Below, one piece after another: positions 38,739 to 43,504 of a stretch of DNA of 64,000 nt (position 1 is its first letter; each line of letters starts with the position of its first letter). The translations under genes and the position numbers were made by a program. The DNA is from Cyanobacterium aponinum PCC 10605 (GTDB taxonomy: Bacteria; Cyanobacteriota; Cyanobacteriia; Cyanobacteriales; Cyanobacteriaceae). The stretch spans positions 3,038,001 to 3,102,000 of the forward strand of contig NC_019776.1 in assembly GCF_000317675.1 (NCBI RefSeq). The letters run 5' to 3'. The notes beneath the pieces are model-generated. The model was not told where the DNA came from, ran no database searches, and saw only the letters and a program-made list of their open reading frames with translations.

Positions 38739-39140
38739 AGCTTAAATATCAAAACTTTCTACATCGGGTATATTTTCCAAGTTACCATAAAGAAAGTCCT
38801 CTCTTTCTGAATCACTACCATAGTCATTTAAGAAGCAGAAAGCAATCCAGATTCCCAACGTTGAAAGTCAGTTTGCTTTCCATACGGACATTAAGGCGTT
38901 GATTATAGTTAGTCACAGTATAGCCGACATTTTAAAAACCATATGGTTTTATACTAATTTTAGACATCTAATTTGTTAATCTTACTTAATGTGCGATCGC
39001 ATCTCGTTTTAGAGTGGGGACAAGTTATGATTTTGATGTATAAAGATTTGAAGAGTCTTATTTTAAAGTGACACTCATTTGTTATTACGTCATTTAATTT
39101 GTCACTGTACATTTCTTGAGAAAAAAAATTCATTCTCTAC
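38739..39140. other. Upstream region of psbA with a gene remnant
   Basis: On the minus strand 38748-38855 reads WIAFCFLNDYGSDSERED then FLYGNLENIPDVESFDI and stop, without a start codon. It is probably the tail of a lost gene that preceded mntA. The remaining AT-rich part leads to the psbA promoter. One GCGATCGC octamer lies at 38994. Confidence 0.4.
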
Positions 39141-39169
39141 TTGACAACCATATCGCTATTTAGTAATAT
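39141..39169 (+). promoter_or_regulatory. psbA promoter
   Basis: The consensus -35 TTGACA (39141-39146) and -10 TAATAT (39164-39169) are separated by exactly 17 bases. Transcription should start near 39176, giving a leader of about 60 bases before the ATG at 39236. Confidence 0.85.
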
Positions 39170-39235: not shown

Positions 39236-40303
39236 ATGACAACAACGATACAAAGCCAACAATTATCTGTTTGGGAGCAGTTTTGTCAGTGGGTCACATC
39301 TACCAACAATCGCTTATATATCGGTTGGTTTGGAGTTTTAATGATCCCTACTCTTTTGACTGCAACCACCTGTTTTATCATCGCTTTTATTGCCGCTCCT
39401 CCAGTGGATATTGATGGTATCCGTGAACCTGTGGCTGGTGCATTACTATATGGTAATAATATTATTACTGCTTCTGTTGTACCTAGCTCAAATGCGATCG
39501 GACTTCATTTTTATCCTATTTGGGAAGCCGCAACTCTTGATGAATGGTTATATAATGGTGGCCCTTACCAGTTGATTATTTTCCACTTCCTCATTGGAAT
39601 TTACTGCTATATGGGCAGACAGTGGGAATTATCTTACCGTTTAGGAATGCGTCCTTGGATTTGTGTGGCATACTCGGCACCTGTTTCTGCGGCTACTGCT
39701 GTTTTGTTAGTTTACTCCATCGGACAAGGCTCTTTCTCTGATGGCTTACCTTTAGGTATCAGTGGCACATTTAATTTTATGTTTGTGCTTCAAGCTGAAC
39801 ACAATGTATTGATGCACCCCTTCCATATGTTGGGAGTTGCAGGGGTATTTGGAGGAGCGTTATTTTCCGCTATGCACGGAAGTTTAGTTACCTCCTCTCT
39901 AGTCAGAGAAACCACTGAAACTGAATCTCAAAACAGTGGTTACAAATTTGGTCAAGAAGAAGAAACTTACAATATTGTCGCCGCTCACGGTTATTTTGGC
40001 AGATTGATTTTCCAATATGCTTCTTTTAACAATAGTCGTGCCTTACACTTTTTCCTCGGTGCTTGGCCTGTAATTGGTATCTGGTTTGCCGCCCTAGCCG
40101 TTTGTTGTTTTGCTTTTAACCTTAACGGCTTCAATTTTAATCATTCTATCCTTGATAGCAATGGTCATGTAATCAAAAGTTGGGCTGATGTGATTAACTA
40201 CGCTAATATCGGCATCGAAGTAATGCACGAACGTAATGTTCACAACTTCCCCTTAGATTTAGCTGGTGCAGAACCCATTTCTGCTCCCATTATCAACGGA
40301 TAA
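39236..40303 (+). CDS. psbA: Photosystem II reaction centre protein D1, D1-prime (microaerobic) type
   Basis: 355 residues. D1 binds TyrZ, P680 and most Mn4Ca ligands. Canonical numbering is one higher than this chain. TyrZ (Y161), D170, E189, H190, S264, H332, E333, H337, D342 and the cleavage site after A344 are all present. Three residues mark the D1-prime form described in cyanobacteria: Ala at 80 (usual Gly), Leu at 158 (usual Phe) and Ala at 286 (usual Thr). Residue 162, next to TyrZ, is Ser instead of the usual Pro, and position 336 is Val. Position 130 is Gln. The C-terminal extension [12 protein letters not shown] is normal. Family knowledge: such copies are usually induced at low oxygen. 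It has its own promoter and terminator. Confidence 0.95.
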
Positions 40304-40341: not shown

Positions 40342-40375
40342 AAGTACCTTCTAATTTTTTAGGGGGTACTTTTTT
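40342..40375 (+). terminator. psbA terminator
   Basis: AAGTACC pairs with GGTACTT over a T-rich loop and is followed by six T. 38 bases after the stop codon. Confidence 0.8.
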
Positions 40376-42236: not shown

Positions 42237-42330
42237 GACACTCCCCCGTCAAGCTACTCTGTGAGCGGGGGATTCTAGCTTCGCAGATTCGTAGCTAGAC
42301 GAGTAAACTCGCCCCCGCCTCGACCATCTC
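42237..42330 (-). ncRNA. Putative omega-RNA / right end of the IS605 element
   Basis: At the 3' end of tnpB two hairpins follow each other: CTAGCT...AGCTAG (42275-42298) and TCCCCCG...CGGGGGA (42242-42272). The element ends about 42237 with ACTCCCCCG. This arrangement overlaps the tnpB 3' end and fits the guide RNA scaffold of TnpB, with the guide given by flanking host DNA (below 42237). The RNA itself is inferred; its 5' limit is unknown. Confidence 0.45.
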
Positions 42331-43504
42331 CACTAGCCTTTTCTTGGACGGACTGCCCGACCGCCACTAAATCTAAACCACGATTCCTAATTACTAAAGC
42401 AGAAGCATGATCTCGCCCTGTAATGTAACCACACTCAGGACATTGGTGTACTCGTTCTTTTAAGTCTTTCTTCCCTGTTCTCGCACCACATTCAGGACAC
42501 CCTTGACTTGTGTAACGGTGATCTACTTTGCACAAATAAGTATCCGTTCGGAAACAAACCCATTCCAAAATGTCAATAAACTGTCCAAAACCAAAATCAG
42601 CACTAGATTTTGACAAGAATGACCTTTGCCACATTCGGAAATTTATATCCTCAACAAATATCATCCCTGCATCCTTTACCAAGTGGTGGGAGAGTTTGAA
42701 ATGGTAATCTTTACGATGGGAAGTAGTCTTAAAATGTAACCGAGCAATACGTTTTTGTAACTTTTTCCATCCACAAGACCCTTTCTGTTTCTTTTTCAGC
42801 ATTCTTTGTAGTCTTTTCAACTCCCGTAAATACTTATTTAAGAACCTAGGTCTAGGGATGGATTCATTGTCTGATGTCACCACAGCGCAGATAAAGCCGA
42901 TGTCCAAACCTTTAGGATGTCCATGAGGGATTGGCTGGGGAATATCCACATCTGACTGCAAGGACAATATGACAAAATACCCTGTCGCTTTTCTCACTAT
43001 CCGAGCTTGTTTTACCAAGAAACCATCGGGAATGGGGCGAGATTGTCTAAATTTAACCCAACCTAATTGGGGTAACTTAATTTGATTTCCTTTAATGCAA
43101 TTCTTTAGCATTTGAGGGAAAACGAAAGATCTCATGCGATTAAGATTCTTGAATCGGGGAAAACCTAGATTTTTCTTTTCACGATCCGCAAAAGCACGTT
43201 CTAGGGTCCTTAATACCTGTTGTTCAACCTGAGCATTGACGTCCGCAATCTTTTTGTTTTGCTTCCTGGCTAAAGTCAAGGATTTTGCTTGTTCATTGTA
43301 ATTAGGATATTTTGTCTCAGGTGACAAAATATACTCCTGTTGAATGGAGCAAGCGTTTACAGGTGATTTTCGTGACCGCATCCAGTCGATTCTTTCCAAG
43401 AGCGCAAAATTCCAGATGGAGCGACACACATCTAGCGTGTGTTCTATTTGCTCGATCTGGAATTTACTTGGTTTGAGTTTATACTCGTAGGAAAGATTCA
43501 ACAT
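42275..43504 (-). CDS. tnpB: IS200/IS605-family TnpB (OrfB) RNA-guided nuclease
   Basis: 409 residues. The N-terminal part (YEYKLKPSKFQIEQIEHTL, then an FPRFKNLNRMRSF segment) is the usual OrfB helix-turn-helix/WED region. The RuvC residues are present: GLDIGFICAVV (Asp), IFVEDINFRMWQRS (Glu) and GRDHASALVIRNRGL (Asp). The zinc motif is CPECG...CPECG. The length and the intact catalytic set suggest a working protein. No tnpA (Y1 transposase) is nearby, so the element cannot move alone. Codon use fits the host. Upstream (43505-43660) is the presumed left end, with inverted halves CCCGTTCA...TGAACGGG. Confidence 0.9.
   Translation of the reverse strand: MLNLSYEYKLKPSKFQIEQIEHTLDVCRSIWNFALLERIDWMRSRKSPVNACSIQQEYILSPETKYPNYNEQAKSLTLARKQNKKIADVNAQVEQQVLRTLERAFADREKKNLGFPRFKNLNRMRSFVFPQMLKNCIKGNQIKLPQLGWVKFRQSRPIPDGFLVKQARIVRKATGYFVILSLQSDVDIPQPIPHGHPKGLDIGFICAVVTSDNESIPRPRFLNKYLRELKRLQRMLKKKQKGSCGWKKLQKRIARLHFKTTSHRKDYHFKLSHHLVKDAGMIFVEDINFRMWQRSFLSKSSADFGFGQFIDILEWVCFRTDTYLCKVDHRYTSQGCPECGARTGKKDLKERVHQCPECGYITGRDHASALVIRNRGLDLVAVGQSVQEKASGDGRGGGEFTRLATNLRS

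Follow-up and report, generated by a model that had tools for sequence, protein, structure and literature searches.

A probable microaerobic D1 isoform (D1′) of Cyanobacterium aponinum PCC 10605 and a putative palindromic operator in its promoter

D1′ is the form of the D1 protein that is expressed under microaerobic conditions (PMC4582080; PMC5061849). According to PMC4500134, Synechocystis psbA1 yields no transcript in air, at low oxygen its transcript follows that of the acsF-II cluster, and the D35H variant of the regulator ChlR binds the psbA1 promoter in gel shift. Low oxygen is reported to induce Acaryochloris psbA1 together with a petC close by, the two being separated by a DUF2892 gene, and Synechocystis slr1181-slr1185 forms a similar cluster (PMC5295598); the same paper cites the view that, in Acaryochloris, D1 of the psbA1 type may be unable to evolve oxygen. 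Met173 of Thermosynechococcus elongatus PsbA2 has been tied to slower reduction of P680+ by TyrZ (PMC9709244) and Ala286 to the loss of a hydrogen bond to P_D1 (PMC12107152), and Glu130 is given as the rule for high-light D1 (PMC4582080).

Here we consider a psbA gene of Cyanobacterium aponinum PCC 10605 at positions 39236-40303 (+ strand) of the window, i.e., of the whole 64,000-nucleotide stretch that was analysed. The gene is an intact open frame of 355 amino acids plus stop with an ATG start, and it very probably encodes the microaerobic isoform D1′ of the Synechocystis psbA1 type. With residue numbers anchored on TyrZ as 161, the codons on the + strand read Ala at 80 (GCT, 39470-39472; Gly in standard D1), Leu at 158 (TTG, 39704-39706; standard Phe), Ser at 162 adjoining TyrZ (TCC, 39716-39718; standard Pro), Ala at 286 (GCC, 40088-40090; standard Thr) and Val at 336 preceding His337 (GTT, 40238-40240; standard Ala), as the earlier note had listed them. 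Residues 130 and 173 are Gln and Pro. All Mn/Ca ligands are kept (Asp170, Glu189, His332, Glu333, His337, Asp342 and Ala344), which would argue against extending the non-oxygen-evolving view of psbA1-type D1 to this protein.

Six Photo_RC genes occur in the genome (4.18 Mb, two contigs, 99.99% complete). We take four of them as psbA and, from their lower Photo_RC scores and our own reading, the other two as psbD. Two psbA copies (L001 and L002) encode an identical standard D1 protein with G80, F158, P162, T286 and A336; the window copy (L003) is the third, and the fourth (L004) encodes a rogue D1 with A80, L158, P162, A286 and T336, in which Gln170, Asn332 and Ala333 are found and Asp342 is absent. 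This rogue or sentinel D1 (L004/L144) lies at C1:2635325-2636200; in another genome, G012, the rogue psbA and an alternative petC are neighbours on one contig. The window protein differs from the standard D1 of its genome at 40 of 354 compared positions, including G80A, F158L, P162S, M172L, F186L, T286A, G289A, M293F, R323Y and A336V. Alignment of the four copies, proposed in the earlier note as a check on its reading, leaves Ser162 and Val336 unique to the window copy, while A80, L158 and A286 are shared with the rogue protein. The latter three, taken in that note as the mark of the low-oxygen form, are therefore not diagnostic alone; they occur together in 10 of the 14 proteins scripted as ligand-altered, the rogue D1 of this genome among them, and the standard PsbA1 of T. 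vulcanus is described as having Ala286 as well (PMC12107152).

A letter scan for Tyr-[Ser-like]-x-Gly-Gln-Gly-x-Phe-x-Asp-Gly, run in coded form over a genome collection of 84,980 species, gave 38 stretches among the matches listed, all cyanobacterial by title and including Synechocystis, Pseudanabaena, Nostoc, Arthrospira, Planktothrix, Synechococcus, Cyanobium, Xenococcus and Calothrix; residue 162 was Ser in 37 of them and Thr in one. Ser162 as a novelty was rejected on these 38 stretches from named cyanobacteria. We then compared 141 different proteins of the D1 family, in groups set by residues 162, 170, 173 and 286 (for the tree also 342), which for that reason are not independent evidence. 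Fifty of the 141 combine S162, A286 and D170. Leu186 and Phe293 are each present in 49 of these 50 and Val336 in 48 of the 49 readable ones, while all 58 standard proteins (P162, T286, D170) have G80, F158, F186, M293 and A336; hence L186, F293 and V336, which lie outside the group definition, split the S162 proteins from the standard ones. The 16 proteins with M173 and P162 all have A336, F186 and M293. In a maximum-likelihood tree built from 132 proteins by a quick method, 47 of 48 S162 proteins, the window D1 included, lie behind one branch (SH-aLRT 98), away from the standard and rogue proteins and together with the D1′ of Synechocystis salina (L036); the exception, L067 from Cyanosarcina (S162, M173, A336), is placed among the M173 proteins. 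The assignment to the low-oxygen class in the earlier note is borne out by sequence and tree, and the window gene appears to be one more member of the known microaerobic class. As judged from the alignments, the D1′ branch is marked by A80, L158, S162, L186, A286, F293 and V336. With the Synechocystis-type psbA1 ('group 3') the window protein shares A80, L158, S162, A286, V336, the intact ligands and the branch, but it has Tyr323 for Arg and the gene lacks an adjoining petC cluster. The genome sample comprised 60 relatives and 388 of the class, from which chosen regions were fetched, and protein searches scored the best five candidates or fewer per genome; since genomes were sampled and match listings were partial, no prevalence is claimed.

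Some further proteins deserve mention. In Thermosynechococcus-like genomes (L142:1505-2584, L143 and L147-L149) the M173-bearing PsbA2 forms a joint group with the standard D1 proteins of that genus (support 99), apart from other M173 D1′ proteins, which would point to convergence or gene conversion. The S162-type D1′ of Synechococcus sp. ATX 2A4 (L045) has Tyr at the position of the Mn ligand His332. The best PDB match, chain AD of 8wql, carries the D1′ letters YSIGQGSF and NVHNFP; either D1′ was present in the sample or a D1′ paralogue was used for the model.

The earlier note had treated Ser162 and Val336 as an addition to the low-oxygen mark. As an explanation of the gene, a special donor-side variant of this strain with new redox behaviour is improbable. 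Both residues do differ from the standard D1 of the genome and lie beside TyrZ and an Mn ligand, and P162S has been made in Chlamydomonas, where it was predicted to add a hydrogen bond to the backbone of Asp170 (PMC3020971); PMC3629139 describes the change together with F211S. Against this, Ser162 together with Val336 is found across cyanobacteria; therefore, the pair marks the widespread D1′ branch as a whole, together with Leu186, Val192 and Phe293, and not this copy. Also in favour of such a variant, residue 323 (40199-40201) is Tyr where most D1 proteins have Arg; in the family it varies among Tyr, Gln and Arg, and among the rows compared Tyr recurs only in L075 and L079, Gln is found in L058, L076, L077 and L130, and His in L047, L051 and L060. 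Residue 323 lies in the region of the PsbV/E4 channel, and mutants of D1-Arg323, Asn322, Asp319 and His304 are reported with 63-91% oxygen evolution and loss of PsbV (PMC9732884). Sequence comparison also places the window gene under purifying selection: its core differs from that of the same-genus orthologue by 20 changes, all of them synonymous, and dN/dS is 0.02-0.06 against three of four other family genomes, the fourth being saturated.

A stress or high-light copy in place of a low-oxygen one is slightly less probable still. Such a copy could share the TTGACA promoter that precedes both standard psbA copies, as the window gene does, but residue 130 is Gln, not the high-light Glu, the protein belongs to a separate branch of the tree, and the promoter element described below is rare before standard psbA genes (5/56). 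Least probable is a rogue (sentinel) D1 giving a photosystem II unable to oxidise water: A80, L158 and A286 are common to both proteins, yet the ligands altered in the rogue D1 are all intact in the window D1, a rogue D1 is encoded separately in this genome, and the 10 altered-ligand proteins are set apart in the tree (SH-aLRT 100). Assignment to the Thermosynechococcus PsbA2 type was rejected as well; the window protein resembles PsbA2 in A80, L158, L172, A286 and a related promoter palindrome, whereas PsbA2 has Pro162, Met173, Ala336, Phe186 and Met293, and the window D1 has Ser162 and Pro173.

The D1′ gene is preceded on the + strand by a -35-like TTGACA (39141-39146, 6/6) and a -10-like TAATAT (39164-39169, 4/6) with a spacer of 17 nt, so that 10 of 12 letters match. 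The sigma-70 promoter announced in the earlier note is present, but as a perfect -35 is paired with a -10 of four matches in six, 'consensus' is a little too strong. The scanned stretch holds seven promoter-like sites vs 6.8 in shuffles, no excess over chance; TTGACA-17-TAATAT is kept upstream of the family orthologues. A terminator-like stem-loop followed by a T run lies at 40342-40371 (+ strand).

D1′ promoters of distant cyanobacteria have in common a palindrome, TATAACYATATRGTTATA, about 70-100 bases before the start. In the window, the putative operator TATCGCTATTTAGTAATA (39151-39168, + strand; p 0.03 alone) lies between -35 and -10. The palindrome was first noticed in a visual inspection of S162 upstreams plus three of the M173 form; in M173 upstreams unseen beforehand, 11 of 12 had two or fewer mismatches to the consensus, a result that preceded the matrix test. 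Counting mismatches to AACYATATRGTT, two or fewer were found in 8 of 37 S162 upstreams (several S162 rows being missed), 14 of 15 M173 and 1 of 56 standard ones. For the matrix test, a matrix was trained on 14 M173-form sites, seeded by the eye inspection, and scored against shuffles of each upstream. After removal of 3 short and 14 near-duplicate rows, 46 of 63 S162 upstreams were retained; 3 of the 18 M173 rows were dropped, as were 2 short and 17 duplicate rows of the 75 standard ones, and 6 upstream rows fell in no group. At p<=0.05 the matrix recovered 33 of 46 S162-form promoters and 5 of 56 standard psbA promoters (at about 0.01, 22/46 and 1/56), along with 14/15 in the M173 training set. 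The 13 S162-type promoters that fail include many from GC-rich Synechococcus and Cyanobium. Among such GC-rich D1′ promoters, L038, L046, L050, L063 and L069 show another palindrome-like stretch, e.g., AACGCTAxCGTT, about 90-110 bases before the start, perhaps a drifted operator.

The same matrix separated paralogues of other genes: 9 of 11 alternative petC vs 2 of 18 main petC, and 7 of 13 second acsF (acsF-II) vs 2 of 15 first acsF (acsF-I). Main petC was tested at 18 of 19 loci (L261 was not located) and acsF-II at all 13, L194 gave p 0.060, 'second' in acsF was assigned by score, and the split acsF of G101 and G166 (L206-L209) stood outside the test. The matrix found nothing before acsF-II of L203, L204 and L205, nor before petC of L249. 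It also found no operator before the alternative petC of L251 (G008), which is split in two frames and, for that reason, may be a pseudogene.

Within the C. aponinum genome itself, the site TATCGCTATTTAGTTATA, which precedes a YgaP-like gene (PF11127) and the alternative petC (L217/L241), is identical to the window D1′ site in 17 of 18 positions, and ATAACTATAAAGTGAT lies between acsF-II and hemF. An own-genome search for the drifted motif form with one mismatch gave 5 places, equal to the 5 of the reversed control; therefore, what speaks for an operator is its position, along with the contrasts between paralogues. The exact 12-mer AACYATATRGTT occurs in 4 places of this genome vs 2 for the reversed control, two of them inside long frames, and was rejected as a regulon key. 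One of these four places is in the window, where the perfect palindrome AACCATATGGTT (16 bp as AAAACCATATGGTTTT) lies at 38937-38948, about 290 bases before the start codon; it is related to the ChlR-type palindrome and was not seen at that place in the same-genus orthologue.

The D1′ motif resembles the ChlR box TTMCC-N3/4-GGWAA as given in PMC13421787 and PMC5295598: both are short palindromes, and the form AACC-ATAT-GGTT shares the core MCC-N4-GGW. The targets overlap, too, with psbA1, acsF-II, ho2 and hemN named for ChlR (PMC4500134). However, the outer letters of the D1′ motif differ, its C/G pair is often T/A, and it is present in genomes where ChlR was not found. With the Picosynechococcus protein as query (E 0.001), ChlR was found in none of the six family genomes, our own included, although a distant form could be missed; the same protein matched 4 of 15 genomes. 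A regulator of the MarR family was rejected after only weak matches, which scored better as ArsR; MarR was the wrong family to search, since Picosynechococcus ChlR scores as HxlR by Pfam. RexT was rejected because its published site, ATTCG-N15-CGAAT in PMC13421787, is unlike the palindrome. A literature search, beyond whose reach lay the original ChlR papers and Sicora 2009, met no earlier description of a D1′ operator.

We inspected 21 D1′ regions (the window and L221-L240), of which L232 gave no D1 by script. In L233 and L239, D1′ is followed by acsF, a heme oxygenase and a HemN-like gene; in L234 it lies beside a coproporphyrinogen oxidase of hemF type, two genes from an ArsR-type regulator. 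D1′ of L238 is divergent from an ArsR-type regulator, with two palindromes between the two genes, and in L201 an ArsR-type regulator lies two genes from acsF. A petC is near D1′ in L223. In G049 and G021 about 1-2.4 kb separate D1′ from the alternative petC, which in G049 lies about 2.3 kb downstream. The ArsR protein L177 of the C. aponinum genome resembles those of L201, L234 and L238 and is a candidate regulator by this resemblance, as a lead only.

Taken jointly, we consider it an even chance that the palindromic operator TATAACYATATRGTTATA is common to D1′ genes of many cyanobacteria, of both the S162/V336 and the M173 kinds, to alternative petC and to acsF-II, that the family has a regulator other than ChlR, and that its D1′, petC-II and acsF-II operators have drifted jointly to a GYGAT half-site. 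This regulator is perhaps an ArsR-type repressor related to those of L238, L234 and L201.

By analogy with the described psbA1 genes, we infer low-oxygen induction of the window copy: off in air, on at low oxygen. The switch would be the operator between -35 and -10 that, to judge from the footprints, also precedes the alternative petC and the second acsF, and a protein bound there inside the promoter would hold the gene off in air. Most likely, when oxygen is low, newly made D1′ would take the place of the standard protein in photosystem II, with a second Rieske protein and second cyclase alongside, and the three may constitute one low-oxygen module. Ala286 would remove the hydrogen bond to P_D1. 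Ser162, Leu186 and Val336 as a group could alter the environment of TyrZ and the Mn cluster; that Ser162 and Val336 tune either of them is plausible from their positions. Charge recombination and donor-side proton transfer might thereby be retuned for a reduced, perhaps sulfidic, state. Against the low-oxygen reading count the weakness of the window operator when taken alone, the equal number of places for the reversed control, the failure to find ChlR in this genome and the neighbourhood of the gene, which consists of cbiD, a nucleotidyltransferase gene, purH, TnpB, and petH-like and purF-like genes, with no low-oxygen gene among the neighbours inspected. The TnpB gene, of the OrfB/TnpB-type of IS605, lies at 42275-43504 between purH and the petH-like gene.

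On its own, the window gene is a further D1′ in an established class. The residue key points to two D1′ forms that differ in how the vicinity of TyrZ and the Mn cluster is changed, either by S162 with L186, F293 and V336, or by M173, and thus to a testable pair of solutions, with L067 as one intermediate. If real, the shared operator would aid the search for the low-oxygen photosynthesis regulon where a genome lacks ChlR and could serve as a DNA bait for the missing regulator.
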